NCBI GenBank assembly: GCA_947470805.1
Contig: CANIVU010000057.1
Span: 1-52,927 of the forward strand
From: Acidobacteriota bacterium
GTDB taxonomy: Bacteria; Acidobacteriota; Terriglobia; Bryobacterales; Bryobacteraceae
Direction: 5' to 3'
DNA: 52,927 nucleotides
Below the pieces are notes generated by a model that saw nothing but the letters and a program-made list of their open reading frames with translations, searched no databases and was not told the DNA's origin. Both the position numbers and the translations under genes were made by a program. Position 1 is the first letter of the stretch. The number at the start of each line of letters is the position of its first letter. Below are positions 28,803 through 39,012 of the stretch, in pieces.

Positions 28803-29417
28803 ATGAGTGAATCCAACGCGGGCACGTCACGCGTACCGTCGACCAGGGGGGCCTCACCGGTTTCCGATCGATGGTCTCTGATCGTGATGCGAATCGCGAC
28901 AGGTGACTCGGGCGCCCTCTCTGATTTCTACGATGAGGCGAACCGCTACGTGCACGCGATAGCTCTGCGTATTCTCCGCGACCCCGATGAAGCCGACGAG
29001 ATAACCCTCGACGTCTTCCAACAGGTATGGCGTCTGGCCGGCAGTTACAACCCGGATCGCTGCGCCGTCACCAGTTGGCTCGGCATGATGGCCCGCAGCC
29101 GTGCGCTCGACCGCTGGCGCTCCATCCAGGCCCGTCGCCGCCTAATCGCGCCCGAACAGCCCGAAGGTCTCGAACACGTCTCCCCGGCCGACGGCCCGGA
29201 GACGCTCCTGGCCACAGCCCAACAGCAGCAGCGCCTACGCCAGGCGCTGCGCGTCCTGCCCGACGAGCAACGTCAAATGATCTCGCTCGCCTTTTGGGAA
29301 GGCCTAAGCCATTCCGAAGTCGCCTCCCGTACCGGCGTCCCATTAGGAACCGTAAAGACCCGCATCCGCCTCGGCATGCTCAAATTAAGGGAGGAACTCG
29401 AACATGCCGGAAATTAG
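28803..29417 (+). CDS. ECF RNA polymerase sigma factor (SigK/RpoE-like)
   Basis: 204 residues. Region 2: LSDFYDEANRYVHAIALRILRDPDEADEITLDVFQQVWRLA with SWLGMMARSRALDRWRS. Region 4: LRVLPDEQRQMISLAFWEGLSHSEVASRTGVPLGTVKTRIRLGMLKLRE. The next gene, a cupin anti-sigma factor, overlaps its end by 14 bases, so this is a SigK/ChrR-type stress pair. It lies 11 bases after the cytochrome b/c gene and may be read through from it, which would link respiratory state and the stress response (inference). Confidence 0.92.
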   Translation: MSESNAGTSRVPSTRGASPVSDRWSLIVMRIATGDSGALSDFYDEANRYVHAIALRILRDPDEADEITLDVFQQVWRLAGSYNPDRCAVTSWLGMMARSRALDRWRSIQARRRLIAPEQPEGLEHVSPADGPETLLATAQQQQRLRQALRVLPDEQRQMISLAFWEGLSHSEVASRTGVPLGTVKTRIRLGMLKLREELEHAGN

Positions 29418-29997
29418 CGAACAGGCCGCCCTCTACGCCATCGGCGCCCTTAGCGGCGCGGAGCGCGACGACTTCGAGCGCCTCCTGGCCGCCGGCGACC
29501 CATCCGCGACCGCGGAAGTCGAAAAGTTCCAAGCCCTGGCCGAAGCCCTGGTCGACGCGACCCCCATCCCAGCCCCTCGCCCCAACATCAAGGACCGCCT
29601 CCTAGCCACCGCGACGAAATCCAAACCGGCCGGCTTCAACGAACCCGAACCCGGCGTCCACGTCCTGCGTAAAGGCGACGGCACGTGGCGCGAAACCGGC
29701 TACCCCGGTGTAACGACGAAGATCCTGCACCTGGAAAAAGAAACTCGCATGGCGACGACTCTGCTGCGTCTGGAGCCCGGCGCCAAATATCCTCCGCACC
29801 ATCACACCCAGATGGAGCAATGCCTGGTCCTGACCGGCGATGTGCGCCTGGGTGACAACGTCCACATCCACGCCGGCGACTACGAAAAGGCCCTCCCCGG
29901 CACTGACCACGAATACCTCACCAGCGACACCGGCTGCGAACTCCTCATCCTCTCCTGCCTAGAAGACGAAATCAAAACCGTGTCACACACAATTTGA
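29404..29997 (+). CDS. ChrR-like cupin anti-sigma factor; C-terminus made by a repeat
   Basis: 197 residues. The N-terminal ~75 residues are the helical anti-sigma part (ALYAIGALSGAERDDFERLL), without the H-x3-C-x2-C zinc motif. The C-terminal ~110 residues are a cupin with metal ligands in PPHHHTQMEQCLVL and HIHAGDYEKA. ChrR-type proteins hold their ECF sigma factor until singlet oxygen, peroxide or other stress is sensed. The last residues T-V-S-H-T-I and the stop are encoded by a copy of the 18-bp repeat at 29977-29994, so the original end of the gene was probably replaced by insertion. Confidence 0.8.
   Translation: MPEISEQAALYAIGALSGAERDDFERLLAAGDPSATAEVEKFQALAEALVDATPIPAPRPNIKDRLLATATKSKPAGFNEPEPGVHVLRKGDGTWRETGYPGVTTKILHLEKETRMATTLLRLEPGAKYPPHHHTQMEQCLVLTGDVRLGDNVHIHAGDYEKALPGTDHEYLTSDTGCELLILSCLEDEIKTVSHTI
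29977..29994 (+). repeat. 18-bp direct repeat, copy 1
   Basis: ACCGTGTCACACACAATT, preceded by four A. Its centre GTGT-C-ACAC is a short palindrome. It forms the last codons of the cupin anti-sigma gene in one direction and the last codons of the transposase (N-C-V-stop) in the other. Confidence 0.9.
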
Positions 29998-30681
29998 TCC
30001 GCCTGTCGCTGCCGCCCGTTTGGGCCGGCCCGGACCGCGTACTTCCAGCGTTCGTCCATACTGCTTTTCCAGCTGCTTTACATAATCCGGACTGCCCGCG
30101 ACCGTTCCCAGCATCGTCGCCCGGCGTAGCACCGCCAACTGCTCGGCGTCCTCCTCCGCCTTCAGGATTTCCCGCCACTCACTCGGCGTGTACATCCGCA
30201 GAAATTCCGCAACCTCCAGGAATCGCGGATACTCGACCACCCCAGCATGCGCCGCTGCACTCGACCACCGATACTCCGTCGCATCCGTTACGATCCCGGC
30301 CCGAACCGGATTCAAATCCACATAAGCCAGCGCCGTTCGGTAATGTTTATCGGCCATCGACGCCGATCCGAACCGCCCCTGCAGTACGTGCCCTTTTCGC
30401 TCATACCGCTCGTTTATCGTCCGTGCAAACTTTGAATTCAGCGAGTGCATCATGTCTGACACCCCGCGATCCCTCTCTGGAATCAGCACCAGATGGTAGT
30501 GGTTAGACAGCAAGCAGTAGCCGATAATCCGGTTCCCACACTCGCCGGCATACCGCCCCAACATGTCCAAAAAGAAGGAATAATCCGAGTCCTCGGTAAA
30601 CACCCTCCCTCGGAAATTCCCTCGTTGCGTCACATGAACCGGCACCCCCGCCGGCGTAAATCGATCAGGCCGTGGCATCAC
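29983..30681 (-). CDS. REP-associated tyrosine transposase (TnpA-REP, Y1 family)
   Basis: 232-residue Y1 transposase. The H-x-H nuclease motif is CLLSNHYHLVLIPE, and the catalytic Tyr lies in RTALAYVDLNPVRAG. The N-terminus PRPDRFTPAGVPVHVTQRGNFRGRVF is typical. Such single-copy domesticated transposases act on short extragenic repeats. Here the gene lies between two direct copies of an 18-bp repeat (29977 and 30719), and its stop codon falls inside one. It looks intact. The C-terminal region (EVRGPGRPKRAA) is an AT-hook-like basic tail. Confidence 0.9.
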   Translation of the reverse strand: MMPRPDRFTPAGVPVHVTQRGNFRGRVFTEDSDYSFFLDMLGRYAGECGNRIIGYCLLSNHYHLVLIPERDRGVSDMMHSLNSKFARTINERYERKGHVLQGRFGSASMADKHYRTALAYVDLNPVRAGIVTDATEYRWSSAAAHAGVVEYPRFLEVAEFLRMYTPSEWREILKAEEDAEQLAVLRRATMLGTVAGSPDYVKQLEKQYGRTLEVRGPGRPKRAAATGGSNCV

Positions 30682-30718
30682 TTAAGTAGTGCCCGCCACC
30701 TCCAATTCCTCTCAAAAA

Positions 30719-30736
30719 ACCGTGTCACACACAATT
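30719..30736 (+). repeat. 18-bp direct repeat, copy 2
   Basis: ACCGTGTCACACACAATT, identical to copy 1, preceded by five A. The ltaE stop codon (30735-30737, minus) uses its last two bases. Confidence 0.9.
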
Positions 30737-31769
30737 AATTTCCCGACGCCGCCACCCCCCGAACCGCCTCCACCGCCCGTGCACACGCCGCCCGATCCAC
30801 ATCAAAATGCGTCAACAGCCGCAACCGCCCCACCCCGTACGCCGAATTAATCAACACCCCCCGCTCCTTCAACCGCGCACTAAACTCCGGCCCGCTCAAC
30901 CCCGTCCCGTTCACATCAAAAAACAAAATATTCGTCTCCGGCGCCCGCTCCACCTTAACCCCCGGAATCGCCGCCAACTCCCGCGCCAAATACTGACAAT
31001 TCTCGTGATCCTCCCCCAACCGCCCCGCCATCTTCTCCAGCCCAATCAACCCAGCCGCCGCCAAAATCCCCGCCTGCCGCATCCCGCCCCCCAACCGCTT
31101 CCGCAACAGCCGCCCCTTATCAATCAACCGCTTCGGCCCCGCCAGCATCGACCCCACCGGCGCCCCCAAACCCTTCGACAAACAGAACATCACCGTATCG
31201 ACCGGCGCTACAACCGTCGAAACCGGTACCCCCAACGCCGCCGCCGCGTTAAACACCCTCGCCCCGTCCATATGCACCGGCAGGCCCAACTTGTGCGCCT
31301 CCTCGCAAATCTCCCGTAGCGTGTCCAACGGGTACACCGTCCCCCCCGCCATATTGTGCGTATTTTCGACCTCAATCAACCCCGTCGGCGCCGCATGAGG
31401 CCCCAAAGGACGCACCTGCTCATAAATCGACGACCAACTCAAAATCCCCGTCTCCGCCACCACCGCCCGCGCCAGACACCCCGTAAACCAGGCCATCATC
31501 GACAGCTCATAATTCAAAATGTGCGCCCGCGACTCGCAGATCACCTCCTGCCCATGCTCGGTATGCACCTTAATGCCGATCGTGTTCCCCATCGTCCCCG
31601 TCGGCACCAGCAGTGCGGCCTCTTTACCCATCAGCGCCGCCGCCCGCTCTTCCAGCAGGTTAATGGTAGGGTCCTCCCCATACACATCGTCGCCAACGAC
31701 AGCCTCCGCCATCGCCCGCCGCATCTCCGCCGTAGGCCGAGTCACCGTGTCGCTGCGCAAATCGATCAT
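30735..31769 (-). CDS. ltaE: Low-specificity L-threonine aldolase
   Basis: 344-residue fold-type I PLP enzyme splitting threonine or allo-threonine to glycine and acetaldehyde. Markers: [12 protein letters not shown] at the start, [33 protein letters not shown] (Asp binding the PLP ring), and [14 protein letters not shown] with the Schiff-base Lys (~198). Its ATG overlaps the hemW stop (31766-31769), so it is translated as the last gene of cyaY-hemW-ltaE. The stop codon lies in a copy of the 18-bp repeat, and the final residues VAASGN may be altered by that insertion. Confidence 0.93.
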
Positions 31770-32848
31770 AGTAAAAACTCCTGAAAAACGTCGTTAGAAA
31801 GCAGAATACCGCGATCCGTCAATCGCACCCGTTCGCCCACCCGTTCCAATAGCCCCATCCCCAAAAACCGTTCCAACGCCGCCCCATGCACCACAGCATC
31901 GGACTCCGAAAAAACCACCCCTTCCCGCAACCGCAACCCCACAAAAAACCGCTCCTCCAAAGAATTCGCGGCACTTTCGGAACCCCGCACAGCCGCCGCC
32001 GAAACATAATCCGCCGCCAACTCCACGTTCTGCCAACGCCGCCCCCCCGCAAACGAATGCGCATCCGCCCCAAACCCCACATACGGATCTAACTTCCAAT
32101 ACTTCAAGTTGTGCCGCGACTCCCGCCCCGCCCGCGCAAAATTGGAAATCTCATACCGCATCACCCCGGCCTCTTCTAGCCGCGCCACCGCCATCTCATA
32201 CATCGAAGCAATCGGGTCATCCCCCGGAATGTCCCGCGCCCCGTACCGCCCGCCGTTATTCAAAATCTCCAAGCCCAACCGGCTGTCCTCATCCACCTCC
32301 AGCATGTATACCGAAACATGCGGCGGATCCAGCGCCAACGCCCCGTCCAGCGATGCCGCGAACGATTCCACCGTCTGCCCCGCCAACCCCGCAATCAAGT
32401 CGATATTAAAATCGTCAATCCCGCCAGCCCGCAGCGCCGCCACATCGGCCGCCACCGTCGTCGCCGTATGCTTCCGCCCCGTCCGACGCAACTCCAAATC
32501 CACGAAGGACTGCACACCCAAACTCACCCGGTTAATCCCGCAGTCAACCCACCCAGCAATCTTCGCGGCGTCAAACGACCCCGGCGCCGCCTCCATCGTA
32601 GCCTCCGCCCAAGGCCGCCCCGGCACGCCCCCCAACAACCCCGCCAGCACCGAAACCTCCATCTGGCTCGGCGTCCCACCACCCAAATAAACCGTGTCCG
32701 GCACAAACGGCCAGTCAAACGCGCGAATCTCCGCCTCCACCCGCGCCGCGTACGCCCCCTCCAACTCCCGCGGGAATACCCCGGAAGCAAAGTTGCAATA
32801 CGTGCACTTCTGCGCGCAAAACGGCCAGGAAATGTAAACTCCAGCCAT
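31766..32848 (-). CDS. hemW: HemW-type radical SAM protein (heme chaperone)
   Basis: 360 residues. The radical SAM cluster motif C-x3-C-x2-C is [11 protein letters not shown] near the N-terminus, followed by [21 protein letters not shown] and [20 protein letters not shown], a signature of HemW rather than HemN. HemW binds heme and delivers it to respiratory enzymes; older annotation calls it oxygen-independent coproporphyrinogen oxidase. The neighbour upstream is cyaY (five bases away), consistent with iron/heme handling. Overlaps ltaE by four bases. Confidence 0.93.
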
Positions 32849-32853
32849 GAATG

Positions 32854-33180
32854 CTAGAGCACAACCTCTTCGCCCAATTGAGTGCTGATGTGCTGCCCCA
32901 TCAGTTCCAACAGCGTCACGCCGCCCAGCGTAAACGCCCCCACCGGCTCATCCCAATCGAGTTTAAAACTCTTCGAATGGGCCGACACCCAAATCTGCCG
33001 CACCGGCGCGTTCGGGCTGACAACGAATTTCCCCGGCGGTTCGTCGAATTCCACCGTCAAAGCCCCATTGTTCATATCCGCGTCGAATTCAAACGACTCG
33101 CCCGCCCGCGTCAGCGCCTTGAAAAGCGAATCCAATGCCCCATCGGCAACCCGGCGAAATGTGGTTTCGTCAATCATCAC
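32854..33180 (-). CDS. cyaY: Frataxin-like iron-binding protein CyaY
   Basis: 108 residues matching the frataxin fold: an acidic first helix (ETTFRRVADGALDSLFKAL), then strands FEFDADMNNGALTVEFDE, GKFVVSPNAPVRQIWVSAHSKSFKLDWD, and the last helix LLELMGQHISTQLGEEV. Frataxins bind ferrous iron and modulate Fe-S cluster assembly. Two adjacent ATGs (33180, 33177) are possible. It is first in the cyaY-hemW-ltaE operon and divergent from bshC. Identification is by the I-W-[VL]-S core and layout, without a database check. Confidence 0.8.
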   Translation of the reverse strand: MMIDETTFRRVADGALDSLFKALTRAGESFEFDADMNNGALTVEFDEPPGKFVVSPNAPVRQIWVSAHSKSFKLDWDEPVGAFTLGGVTLLELMGQHISTQLGEEVVL

Positions 33181-33253
33181 TTTAGACGTTAACAGATACC
33201 TGCGACGAATGAATTGAAACAGGCATCTGATAGCCTGTACTAGACGGACCCGG

Positions 33254-34822
33254 ATGGAACAACACTGTATACGCCACGACCAACTCCCAGGCGCTTCTCG
33301 CCTGTTCGCGGACCTGTTGTACCACTACGACCGCGTTTCCCACCTCTACCACCACGCCCCCTACGACCCCGACTCCTACCTGCAGGCCGCAAAAGAAATC
33401 GTCTACCCCGCCGACCGCCGCGCCGCCATCGTCGCCGCCCTGCGCCAGTCCAACCCCAACAACCCGTCCATCGATAAGCTCGCCAACCCCAACACCGTCG
33501 CCGTCGTCACCGGCCAACAAGTCGGCCTCTTCGGCGGCCCGCTCTACACAATCTTCAAAGCGCTAGCCGCCGTCAAACTGGCAAAAACTCTGTCGGACCG
33601 CGGCACCTGCGCCGTCCCCGTCTTCTGGTTCGCCACCGAAGATCACGACCTCGCCGAAATCAACGTCTCCTGGGCCTTCAATGCCGCTGGCCAGCCCGAA
33701 AGCTACACCACCAAATCGGTCAACCCCACCAACGGCCCCGTCGGCAACATCCCTCTCCGCGACATCCCGCTCGATGCGGTACGCCAGACGCTGATCGGCA
33801 TGCCCTATGCCGACGAAGCTATGTCCCTCGCCGAGTCGGCCTACAAAGACGGCGCCACCTTCGCCACCAGCTTCCGCAGCTTCGTAGAGACGCTCCTAAA
33901 GCCCTACAACATGATCTACCTGGATCCCCTCGATCCAGCCATCCGCCAGATCGCTGCGCCCTTCCTGAGTCGCGCCCTGAGCCTCTCAAAAGATCTCGTC
34001 GCCCAGGTCCAAAAGCGAACCCAGGAGCTGGAAGCCGCCGGCTACCACGGCCAGGTTCATCTGGAATCGAACGCCTCCCTCCTCTTCACCCTGGAAAACG
34101 GCAAGCGCGTCGCGCTCAAGCGCACAGGCGAAACCTTCAACGATCGCACCCTCGCCGATCTCCAAGCGAAGCCCGAACTCCTCAGCCCCAACGCCATCCT
34201 CCGCCCCGTCATGCAGGACTTCCTCCTGCCCACCGTCGCCTACCTCGGCGGCCCCGCGGAACTGGCCTACTTCGCCCAAAGCGAACCCCTCTATCAAACT
34301 CTCCTGGGCCGCATGCCCGTCGTCGCCCACCGTGCGTCGTTCACCCTCTACAGCCACCGCGTCGCCAAGATCGCCAAGCGCTACCAACTCGCCCTCAAGG
34401 ACATCGCCGTCCCCGACGTCACCCTCCGCGAACGCATGGCCCGCCACCTGGTCCCGGAAAACATCACCGGCCAGTTCGCCTCCTCCCGCGTAACGATCGA
34501 AGCCGAACTAAAAAAACTCTCCACCTCCGTGAAAGGCTTCGATCCCGGCCTCGACAAAGTCTTCGAAAAGAGCAGCGCCAAGGTGCTCTACCAGATCGGC
34601 AAAATGGAGCAAAAAACGGCAAGGGAGGCCATGCGCCGCGACGCCCGCGCCACCGCCGACGCCGAGTACATCCATAACGCCATCTACCCCCACCGCCACC
34701 TGCAGGAGCGCATGTACGGCATCCTCCCGTTCCTGGCCACCTACGGCATGGACCTGGTCGAACGCATCTACGAATGCGTCGAACCCACCTGCCCCGATCA
34801 TCAGGTCTTAACCGTCGACTGA
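33254..34822 (+). CDS. bshC: Bacillithiol biosynthesis cysteine-adding enzyme BshC
   Basis: 522 residues of the BshC/YllA family, proposed to ligate cysteine to glucosaminyl-malate in the last step of bacillithiol synthesis. Family landmarks: VVTGQQVGLFGGPLYTIFKALAAVKLAK, VPVFWFATEDHDLAEIN, YLDPLDPAIRQ, LLPTVAYLGGPAELAYFAQ and KRDARATADAEYIHNAIYPHRHLQER-like end. Together with frataxin and HemW next door it makes a thiol/iron/heme neighbourhood. bshA and bshB are not in the window. The start follows a promoter gap of 73 bases shared with cyaY. Confidence 0.93.
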   Translation: MEQHCIRHDQLPGASRLFADLLYHYDRVSHLYHHAPYDPDSYLQAAKEIVYPADRRAAIVAALRQSNPNNPSIDKLANPNTVAVVTGQQVGLFGGPLYTIFKALAAVKLAKTLSDRGTCAVPVFWFATEDHDLAEINVSWAFNAAGQPESYTTKSVNPTNGPVGNIPLRDIPLDAVRQTLIGMPYADEAMSLAESAYKDGATFATSFRSFVETLLKPYNMIYLDPLDPAIRQIAAPFLSRALSLSKDLVAQVQKRTQELEAAGYHGQVHLESNASLLFTLENGKRVALKRTGETFNDRTLADLQAKPELLSPNAILRPVMQDFLLPTVAYLGGPAELAYFAQSEPLYQTLLGRMPVVAHRASFTLYSHRVAKIAKRYQLALKDIAVPDVTLRERMARHLVPENITGQFASSRVTIEAELKKLSTSVKGFDPGLDKVFEKSSAKVLYQIGKMEQKTAREAMRRDARATADAEYIHNAIYPHRHLQERMYGILPFLATYGMDLVERIYECVEPTCPDHQVLTVD

Positions 34823-34834
34823 TAGAATGGCGCC

Positions 34835-35599
34835 ATGCGCCCCAACGCCGTAAAGCAGGCCCTTGCCGAAGGAAAGACCGTCCTCGGAACCTCCTACGGG
34901 CAACTCCGTGACCCCGAAATCGCCCGCCTCCTAAAGGCCGGTGGCTTCGATTACGTCTACCTCGACGGCGAGCACGGCGGCTTCGGCATTGAGACGATCC
35001 AGGACATCTGCCGCACCGCCAGCCTCTGCGGCCTGACGGTCTTCACCCGTGTAGCCGACATGCAATACGCGCTGGTGGCCCGCGCCCTCGATTGCGGCTC
35101 CGACGGCGTCATCTTCCCCAGAGTCGAATCCCCCAAACTTTTAGAAGAAGCCGTCAGCTGGTGCAAATTTCCGCCGGTCGGCATCCGCGGCTTCGGCCTG
35201 ACGGTGATGCAGTCCAACTACGAACCCGTAACGATCCCACAGATGATCGCCCACCGCAACGAAAACGGCATGGTGATCCTGCAAATCGAAACGGTGAAGG
35301 CACTGGAAATACGCGACGAACTGCTCAGCGTGAAAGGCCTCGACGTAGTCATGGTCGGCCCCGTCGACCTGTCGATCTCGCTCGGCATCCCCGGCGAATT
35401 CGAGCACCCCAAATTCCTAGCCGCCCTGGACCAAATCCGCGACACCTGCGAAGCGAAAGGAATCGTCCCCGGCATCCAATGCCGAGGCGTAGCGTTGAGC
35501 AAGGCCTGCAAAGAGCGCGGCTACCGGTTCCTCGGCACGAGCAACGAGTGGAACCTCCTCCTCGAAAAAACCCGCGAAACCGTCGCCGCCCTCAAATAA
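34835..35599 (+). CDS. HpcH/HpaI-type aldolase
   Basis: 254-residue class II pyruvate-dependent aldolase. Typical pieces: YVYLDGEHGGFGIETI, ALDCGSDGVIFPRVESPKLLEEAVSWCKFPPVGIRGFG, ILQIETVKALE and LDVVMVGPVDLSISLG (metal Glu/Asp and substrate Arg). It cleaves 4-hydroxy-2-oxo acids or 2-keto-3-deoxy sugar acids; the exact substrate is unknown. It is 12 bases downstream of bshC. The TAA stop directly abuts a copy of the 18-bp repeat. Confidence 0.9.
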   Translation: MRPNAVKQALAEGKTVLGTSYGQLRDPEIARLLKAGGFDYVYLDGEHGGFGIETIQDICRTASLCGLTVFTRVADMQYALVARALDCGSDGVIFPRVESPKLLEEAVSWCKFPPVGIRGFGLTVMQSNYEPVTIPQMIAHRNENGMVILQIETVKALEIRDELLSVKGLDVVMVGPVDLSISLGIPGEFEHPKFLAALDQIRDTCEAKGIVPGIQCRGVALSKACKERGYRFLGTSNEWNLLLEKTRETVAALK

Positions 35600-35617
35600 A
35601 CCGTGTCACACACGATT
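35600..35617 (+). repeat. 18-bp direct repeat, copy 3
   Basis: ACCGTGTCACACACGATT, one base different from copies 1 and 2. It begins on the base after the aldolase stop codon. Confidence 0.88.
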
Positions 35618-35664
35618 TAATTCGCCTAACCCCTTTCTTTCCATCGCCACCCCCTCGAAAAAAA

Positions 35665-35682
35665 ACTGTGTCACACACAATT
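35665..35682 (+). repeat. 18-bp direct repeat, copy 4
   Basis: ACTGTGTCACACACAATT, one base different from copies 1 and 2, preceded by eight or more A. It contains the GTG that is the only plausible start codon of the histidine phosphatase gene. Confidence 0.88.
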
Positions 35683-36278: not shown

Positions 36279-37871
36279 ATGCCCAACCCCACCACGCTCC
36301 CCGCCTGGCAAGCCTTGCAAGCCCACCACGCCGAGATCAGCAAAACCCATCTCCGCGACCTCTTCGCCGCCGACCCCGCCCGCGGCACCACCCTCACCGC
36401 CGAAGCCGCCGGTCTCTACCTCGACTTCTCCAAAAACCGCATCACCGCCGAAACCATCCAACTCCTCGTCCAACTCGCCAACGAGTCCAACCTCCGCGCC
36501 CGCACCGAGGCCATGTTCACCGGCAAAAAAATCAACACAACCGAAAATCGCGCCGTCCTCCACACCGCCCTCCGAGCCCCCAAAACAGCCCAAATCGTCG
36601 TCGACAACCACAACGTCGTCCCCGACGTCCAAGCCGTGCTCGACAGCATGTCCGCGTTCGCCGAAAAGGTCCGCAGCGGCCAGTGGCTCGGCCACACCGG
36701 CAAGCCTATCAAGAACGTAATCAACATCGGCATCGGCGGCTCCGACTTGGGGCCCGTCATGGCCTACGAGGCCCTCAAGCACTACTCCGCCCGCCACCTG
36801 CACTTCTACTACGTTTCGAATGTCGACGGCACCGATCTCGCCGAAGCCGTCCTCGGTCTCGACCCCGCCGAAACCCTCTGCATCGTCAGCTCAAAGACGT
36901 TCACGACGATCGAGACGATGACCAACGCCAGCAGCGCCCGCCAGTGGCTCCTGGCGACGTTGAAGGACCCCGCCGCCGTCGCCAAGCACTTCGTGGCCGT
37001 ATCGACAAACGCCGCCGAAGTCTCCAAATTCGGCATCGACACCGCGAACATGTTCGGCTTCTGGGACTGGGTAGGCGGCCGTTATTCCATGGATTCCGCC
37101 ATCGGCCTGTCGACGATGCTAGCCATCGGCCCCGACAACTTCCGAGCGATGCTGAATGGCTTCCACGAAATGGACGAGCACTTCCGCACCGCGCCGTACG
37201 ACCAAAATCTCCCCGCCCTAATGGGCCTGCTCGGCCTCTGGTACACGAACTTTTTCGGAGTCCACACCCAAGCCGTCCTCCCCTACGAGCAGTATCTGAA
37301 AAGGTTCCCCGCCTACCTCCAGCAGCTAACCATGGAGAGCAACGGCAAGTACATCCAGCTCGACGGCGAGCGCGTGAACTACGACACCGGCGTCATCTAC
37401 TGGGGCGAACCTGGTACCAACGGCCAGCACAGCTTCTACCAACTGATCCACCAGGGCACCCGCCTCATCCCCTGCGACTTCCTGTTCTTCGCCAAGAGCC
37501 TGAACCCCAACGGCCGCCACCAGGACATCCTCATCGCAAACGTCCTGGCCCAAGCCGAAGCCCTGGCGTTCGGTAAGCCCGACAGCCCCGAGCCCCACCG
37601 CGTCTTCGAAGGCAACCGCCCCTCGAACATGCTGGTTGCCGACCAACTCGACCCCGCGACCCTCGGCAAACTCGTAGCCCTCTACGAGCACGCCGTCTTC
37701 ACTCAGGGCATCATCTGGAACATCGACAGCTTCGACCAATGGGGCGTCGAACTCGGCAAGGTCCTGGCCAACAAAATCGTCCCCGAACTCGAAAGCGAAA
37801 CCGAGCCCGCCCTCAACCACGACAGCTCGACCAATAACCTGATCCGCCGCTACCGCGCCGCCAGACGCTGA
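36279..37871 (+). CDS. pgi: Glucose-6-phosphate isomerase
   Basis: 530-residue PGI, interconverting glucose-6-phosphate and fructose-6-phosphate. Family motifs: [80 protein letters not shown] (catalytic Glu and His) and [11 protein letters not shown]. Full-length E. coli-type form. It starts five bases after the phosphatase stop. The last codons ([13 protein letters not shown]) and the bases after the stop are duplicated at 38965-39012, which marks an insertion event downstream. Confidence 0.97.
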
Positions 37872-37875
37872 TCGG
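37828..37875 (+). repeat. 48-bp direct repeat, left copy (pgi 3' end)
   Basis: Covers the last codons and stop of pgi plus four following bases. It matches 38965-39012 at 46 of 48 positions (differences at the AATA/AACA and CGCG/CGTG sites). The two copies bracket the nucleotidyltransferase cassette. Confidence 0.92.
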
Positions 37876-38964: not shown

Positions 38965-39012
38965 CGACCAACAACCTGATCCGCCGCTACCGTGCCGCCA
39001 GACGCTGATCGG
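38965..39012 (+). repeat. 48-bp direct repeat, right copy
   Basis: Duplicate of the pgi 3' end, 1137 bases from the left copy and in the same orientation. It is not part of any intact gene here. It reads as the scar of an insertion or tandem-duplication event that brought in the small gene and the nucleotidyltransferase gene. Confidence 0.92.

Follow-up and report, generated by a model that had tools for sequence, protein, structure and literature searches.

REP-type hairpins around a Y1 transposase gene in an acidobacterial genus form direct doublets and supply TAA stop codons at gene ends

Repetitive extragenic palindromes (REPs) are best known from REPtrons, in which dispersed hairpins surround a single-copy gene for a Y1/HUH transposase of the REP-associated tyrosine transposase (RAYT, or TnpAREP) type and each transposase has its own repeat type (PMC2817692; PMC6006769; PMC8266576). 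RAYT genes are described as always flanked by inverted REPs (PMC2817692). REPs lie close to the 3' ends of genes (within 20 bp), in convergent and tandem gaps and scarcely in divergent ones; intragenic copies and head-to-tail dimers occur, and the termini of GTAG-REPs often supply the stop codon TAG (PMC3733652). Transposases of TnpAY1 subclass 2.1, the TIRYTs, have been reported in Acidobacteria, some with repeated dimeric terminal inverted repeats (TIRs) (PMC3733652; PMC6006769), and this subclass is tabulated without REPs (PMC6006769). These and all later comparisons with published systems refer to the portions of the papers that were available. In the window analysed here, a stretch of 52,927 nucleotides from a Bryobacteraceae genome (contig CANIVU010000057.1), a Y1 transposase gene is bracketed by short direct repeats, named REP-A, that lie at the ends of the surrounding genes.

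The locus resembles REPtrons in its dispersed hairpins around a single-copy Y1/HUH transposase with a Y---NP motif and in its 3'-end preference, and differs from them in that the repeats carry no GTAG or GTGG tag and that the bracketing copies are direct. With the GTAG/CGTC REPs of PMC3733652 it shares placement at 3' ends, in convergent and tandem gaps, inside genes and head to tail; unlike those, the stop supplied is TAA, it comes from untagged AA edges in a single register, and the replacement is visible in REP-free orthologues. REP-A is probably the cognate repeat of the transposase that it brackets, entering at or beside stop codons, rebuilding TAA and forming direct doublets.

The 18-mer ACYGTGTCACACACRATT occurs in the window exactly four times, at 29977, 30719, 35600 and 35665, always on the plus strand, just as an initial annotation of this DNA had listed it. 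A search of the whole window with three mismatches tolerated revealed no further copy, and 100 shuffles gave a mean of 0.07 copies and a maximum of 1. The better repeat unit has 19 bases, AACC-GTGT-CAC-ACAC-RATT. The claim that every copy touches a coding end proved right for all four (cupin and transposase stops, ltaE stop, aldolase stop, phosphatase start). The features are as follows; a slash marks the repeat edge, and G000 is the genome of the window (8.7 Mb, 220 contigs), G003, G004, G010 and G014 being genomes of the same genus.

29404..29997, plus strand: cupin/ChrR-type anti-sigma open reading frame (ORF), PF12973, C-terminus REP-encoded
29976..29994, plus strand: REP-A copy 1 (19-base unit), coding for the end of the cupin ORF and holding the transposase stop; same place in G004
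29983..30681, minus strand: Y1/HUH transposase, REP-associated type, 232 aa from GTG 30681 (ATG 30678 possible), with NHYH and YVDLNP
30718..30736, plus strand: REP-A copy 2, which has two bases in common with the ltaE stop (register T/AATTG)
30735..30737, minus strand: ltaE stop codon TAA, its AA common to copy 2
35597..35599, plus strand: aldolase stop codon TAA, abutting copy 3
35599..35617, plus strand: REP-A copy 3, the left-hand repeat of a direct doublet, its 18-mer beginning one base past the aldolase TAA
35618..35663, plus strand: doublet spacer, 46 bases between the 19-base units (47 between the 18-mers)
35664..35682, plus strand: REP-A copy 4, the right-hand repeat of that doublet, supplying the likely phosphatase GTG start (35668)

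The cupin ORF ends with a TGA (29995-29997) directly after copy 1, and the transposase stop, TGA 29983-29985 on the minus strand, lies within that copy; in G010 the cupin ORF has a different, REP-free end. The REP-free ltaE orthologue of G010 has TAG at the codon that is TAA in the window. Between 35599 and 35721, the frame of the phosphatase has no ATG, GTG or TTG other than GTG 35668. At the aldolase-phosphatase junction of G004 there is no repeat and the phosphatase starts with ATG; at that of G014 a pair of a sister repeat, REP-B, is found.

The 18-mer is the core of a dispersed REP-type hairpin family of an acidobacterial genus. In G000 the REP-A core GTGTCACACACRATT has 37 exact and 45 one-mismatch places, against 0 for a reversed-pattern control. 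Among 101 genomes, ranging from genus to class, REP-A at one mismatch was found in three, all within the genus (38 places in G000, 14 in G004 and 12 in G010). REP-B, the palindrome AATTGGTGCCWNGCACCAATT, has 38 places in G000 at up to two mismatches (listed on both strands and then merged), shares gene junctions with REP-A, and occurs at one mismatch in 5 of the 19 genomes of the genus (G000, G014, G010, G004 and, at one place, G003). The transposase-sense strand of the REP-A unit folds as AATTGTGT-GTG-ACACGGTT, the outer arms being closed by two G.T pairs, into a 9-bp stem with one more A-T (-2.8 kcal/mol, z -1.5); on the opposite strand only the inner 4 bp pair (-1.7 kcal/mol, z -0.7). Strong hairpins are formed by the palindromic variant AACC...GGTT (-9.3 kcal/mol) and by REP-B (-11.4 kcal/mol). 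The REP-B palindrome extends outward with differing yet complementary letters, AGATTAAATT...AATTTAATCT and ACATTAAATT...AATTTAATGT (L035, L049, L137 and others), and its outer arms look as if corrected to match each other. A putative REP-C family (GTGTCWGACAC with AA..TT ends) was rejected, as it had one exact place in G000 (C9), the rest being REP-A, its variants or isolated degenerate hairpins.

Under a 300-base rule, the 83 copies in G000 (45 REP-A, 38 REP-B) form 52 clusters, 44 of which lie between genes: 19 in convergent gaps, 13 and 9 in tandem gaps and 3 in divergent gaps, one of the last (C70) probably being misassigned, with a gene called through the repeat. In a background sample of 451 kb, the source of the stop and gap statistics, 17% of intergenic bases were convergent and 25% divergent, and 397 genes ended in TAA (143, or 36%), TAG (136) or TGA (118). 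A stop is overlapped or touched by 22 of the 44 intergenic clusters, and 33 lie within 10 bp of one. Between -25 and +6 from a stop lie 34 repeat edges; in 18 of these, the A-run of the repeat comes immediately after the T of the stop. All 18 stops are TAA, and in each the AA comes from the repeat edge. At -2 to 0 from the stop, 18 of 19 edges are in this T/AA register and TAA, versus 36% TAA in the background. The register edges fall in 17 of the 44 intergenic clusters, where uniform intergenic placement predicts about 1.7% (p 5e-19). Gene-end placement is thus genuine, and the copies are neither few nor random with respect to genes. The "gene-end-seeking" character proposed initially stands as a strong preference and falls as a rule for every copy; nor is it as unusual as was then supposed, given the 3'-end REPs, stop-supplying GTAG termini and head-to-tail dimers in the available part of PMC3733652.

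This register may reflect target choice, the survival of harmless insertions, or both. Selection by itself, in which repeats would insert without site preference and persist at harmless sites, chiefly intergenic ones or last codons, is a possible though doubtful explanation: intergenic gaps are short (medians of 10 to 17 bp outside divergent gaps), and there are intragenic and near-end copies with different offsets (of the 34 edges, 16 are off-register), yet the peak is one base wide, with 18 T/AA edges versus 8 in all at +1 to +6 from a stop, sites that would be equally harmless.

Comparison with relatives bears on how the stops arose. Twenty-two repeat-bearing ends were searched in six genomes of the genus with C-terminal pieces, and 70 loci were read, 30 directly from the search and 40 fetched (33 orthologue loci and 7 chiefly transposase or repeat regions). 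A REP-free orthologue was available for 16 of the 18 register genes, the other two having no usable orthologue, and 15 of these 16 genes end within two codons of the REP-free orthologues, whose 42 stops comprise 15 TAA, 14 TGA and 13 TAG. From these shared ends and mixed stops it follows that the AA of the register TAA codons is mostly repeat-derived, so that the repeats entered at pre-existing gene ends and re-made the stop. A clear case is C40, where REP-free G010 reads TAC TGA and G000 reads TAC TAA followed by a doublet. At C5:70752, G000 has REP-A, both G010 and G014 have REP-B, and G003 lacks any repeat; together with the REP-B pair of G014 at the aldolase-phosphatase junction, this shows repeated use of the same gene ends, by insertion or replacement. 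C38 carries a doublet in G010 and a single repeat in G000 and G004, while C5:82081 has one REP-B in G004 and G010, with an added inverted REP-A pair in G000. Such differences between species show repeat turnover.

The same comparison makes it rather unlikely that the repeats are host-functional hairpins, retained because they act as transcription terminators, mRNA stabilisers or gyrase/IHF-type sites, with positions that follow from this use. Convergent gaps and 3' ends are strongly preferred, the REP-B hairpin is strong, and the helical spacing described below could suit a DNA-bending host protein; against this, the closest relatives lack repeats at many of the same ends, and the pnp and C75 ends retain a GC-rich inverted repeat plus T's just downstream that are terminator-like, as judged by eye only.

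Successive REP-A pairs inside clusters are direct in 14 of 16 cases, so that the direct-repeat type first noticed in the window extends to the genome. REPINs also occur frequently as doublets, with solo copies that may be relics; unlike these direct pairs, they are inverted and form one long hairpin (PMC3116915). The direct doublets are polar, their left and right ends being different: in 13 of them, the base before the left copy is T (6) or C (7) and that before the right copy is G in 11, the base after the T-run of the right copy is A in 10, and CnGA precedes the A-run in 6 right members. No constant GTAG or CGTC foot was found in the flanks of all 45 REP-A copies. Doublet spacers are alike beyond shuffles (0.084 versus 0.025, sd 0.006), two of the 17 being orthologous to others.

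The transposase passes the PF01797 (Y1_Tnp) cut-off of 23 with 41 bits, and the initial reading of a REP-type repeat around a Y1 transposase is supported. Its catalytic motifs, N60-H61-Y-H63 and Y120-VDLNP, are 59 residues apart and are followed by a conserved C-terminal tail; the Y, N, P, R and A are invariant in 12 aligned relatives, and the middle residue of NHYH varies. With an HUH motif and the catalytic Tyr in Y---NP it agrees with the RAYT/TnpAREP group in domain and motifs, and in being bracketed by hairpin repeats dispersed through the genome the locus has the make-up of a REPtron, with direct instead of inverted bracketing repeats. Its motifs and dimensions (NHYH, YVDLNP, 232 aa, HuH-Y 59, tail) fit the published table for subclass 2.1, a resemblance at that level, and it shares NH[YF]H, Y-LNP, about 238 aa and the tail with subclass 2.1/TIRYT proteins (PMC6006769; PMC3733652); unlike theirs, its flanking repeats are short direct hairpins and not TIRs, and no helix-turn-helix Pfam match was found in it. 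Phylum, atypical hairpins and the CnGA foot recall the class 3 TnpAY1 of Acidobacteria, a membership rejected since the class 3 Y motif ends in Q (PMC6006769). An IS200/IS605 identity was likewise rejected, the motif being Y---NP and not Y---Q and near-identical multiple copies being absent (other relatives in G000 are at most 56% identical). No solved structure matched the transposase by sequence to E 0.01, and 23 plasmid records carry relatives, each below 60% identity. A GGCAC motif shortly before the start codon (about 30683-30700 in the window) recurs upstream of otherwise different Y1 transposases (L053, L057, L058, L066). Behind one of these genes (G000:C13, L058) stands a perfect hairpin of 17 bp, GGACAATTCCTGGGTGA-CAG-TCACCCAGGAATTGTCC, and a shorter version precedes the gene; this may be a REP type of its own.

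Relatives of the transposase at E 0.001 occur in 59 of the 101 genomes, a much wider distribution than that of REP-A. The co-distribution of transposase and repeat, which the initial annotation had named as a possible test, is suggestive only: a 95%-identical transposase is present in G004, with REP-A at both of its ends as in G000, and G010 has REP-A without it. At the ltaE-cupin junction, G014 has a 57% relative with an inverted REP-B-like pair, G010 has an unrelated 384-base ORF (G010:C300, L184, 1812-2195), and no transposase was detectable in G003. Vertical descent at this junction in G000, G004 and G014 was considered and set aside: the six genus sequences were not resolved, the syntenic trio being grouped in 12% of bootstrap trees. 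That the transposase gene by coincidence entered a junction already holding REP-A is improbable: the junction accepts inserts, because G010 has an unrelated ORF there, and REP-free or REP-different transposases of similar divergence exist in the genus (G003, G014 and C154 of G000 itself), yet repeats stand at both transposase ends, one forming its stop, in G004 as well, and this transposase also occurs in 2 of the only 3 genomes among 101 that have REP-A (at most one mismatch).

If REP-A is cognate to the transposase, as appears probable, the enzyme would recognise the REP-A hairpin on one DNA strand and cut and join single strands beside it, cleavage being expected on the AATTGTGTGTGACACGGTT strand rather than its complement. 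Mobilisation by this enzyme and the cut site itself are what we infer from the arrangement. Repeats would enter at or beside stop codons, with the edge AA placed just behind the T of the stop; since the edge starts with AA, such entry would rebuild TAA and leave the upstream gene intact. Copies often form direct doublets with unlike left and right ends that fill the space between two genes.

Several points weigh against this reading. No repeat movement has been observed, and the REP-A hairpin is weak on its own on both strands. The match to NF047646 (REP_Tyr_transpos) reaches 55.7 bits, under the cut-off of 80; the relatives in G014 and C154 reach 67.8 and 67.2 bits. REP-A persists in G010, a 75% complete assembly, although no cognate transposase was detected there. 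Genes were called with an own dicodon script and not a standard caller, and 8 of the 52 clusters lie inside called genes. The null for the 22 stop-touching clusters used intergenic points only, while the observed set includes clusters that reach as far as 25 bases into a gene, a mismatch of which the register test (17/44) is free. Finally, the product of one register gene, C5:147371, stops 11 residues short of its three orthologues, an outcome expected of random truncation.

A further regularity was noticed while spacers were being measured, and was then tested on fresh pairs. Centre-to-centre distances of same-type REP pairs in G000, G004, G010 and G014 cluster at 65, 77, 88, 99, 110, 120, 131, 141 bp and so on, in steps of about one helical turn. 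In the first set, 36 neighbouring same-type pairs from the four genomes, some of them mutually orthologous, gave R 0.80 at 10.7 (0/5000 jitters), and mixed A-B pairs were weakly phased (best R 0.41, n=23). All 21 new, hand-listed hold-out pairs gave R 0.48 (p 0.0021), and R 0.60 (n=15, p 0.0017) after removal of presumed orthologues and extremes. The combined 45 same-type pairs have a period of about 10.7 bp (R 0.77, scan-corrected p 5e-5), with 42 of them within phase 0.01-0.44; one value per distinct distance (n=16) gives p 0.008. This combined set excludes presumed orthologues (G010 C228 88 and 110, C395 98; G004 C217 110, C26 100, C69 120; G014 C22 109) and also 93, 117, 21 (C32 array), 194 (C46), 242 and 17. 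As 93, 117, 21, 242 and 17 are out of phase, their exclusion favours phasing; the 21-pair hold-out keeps them. The counts leave aside same-type pairs that are separated by a copy of the other type; among these, 88 (C131), 100 (C32) and 98 (G004 C50) are in phase and 191 (C36), 166 (C16) and 211 (G004 C217) out of phase. This spacing is the least expected result and the one most in need of an independent data set. It is a tentative proposal, on the unlikely side, that REP-A and REP-B are stop-codon-regenerating mobile doublets whose same-type repeats need one helix face and are targeted to the first T of stops. If it were true, the transposase or a host protein would capture the pair while the DNA is duplex, a step that a purely single-stranded IS200/REP model does not predict, and such targeting would make insertion nearly harmless.

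Read together with its relatives, the family offers a readable record of harmless REP settling, with the ancestral stop (TGA, TAG or TAA) in near relatives beside the REP-made TAA. It would add REP-like repeats to a type of transposase that is tabulated without them, its direct doublets have a defined left end and a defined right end for in vitro work, and its spacing prompts one to ask whether recognition of REP pairs takes place on duplex DNA. In the literature examined, the coverage of which is incomplete, no report of the REP-A family or of a TAA register with REP-free orthologues was found, and a limited search found no account of helical phasing of REPs. An untagged REP with polar direct doublets, with a probable cognate transposase that resembles a subclass tabulated as REP-free and with same-type spacing of about 10.7 bp, thus appears unreported in the available parts of these sources.

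REP-A and REP-B copies also lie within a coding sequence that resembles murB by eye (G000:C96, L039, near 30242 and 30872); they are kept at the same place in three genomes (G000 L039, G004 L060, G010 L217), in each of which the C96 REP-A lies in frame inside the ORF. Elsewhere in the window, two 48-base direct repeats (37828-37875 and 38965-39012), 96% alike, are separated by 1137 bp; the first lies where an ORF named by eye as glucose-6-phosphate isomerase-like ends.

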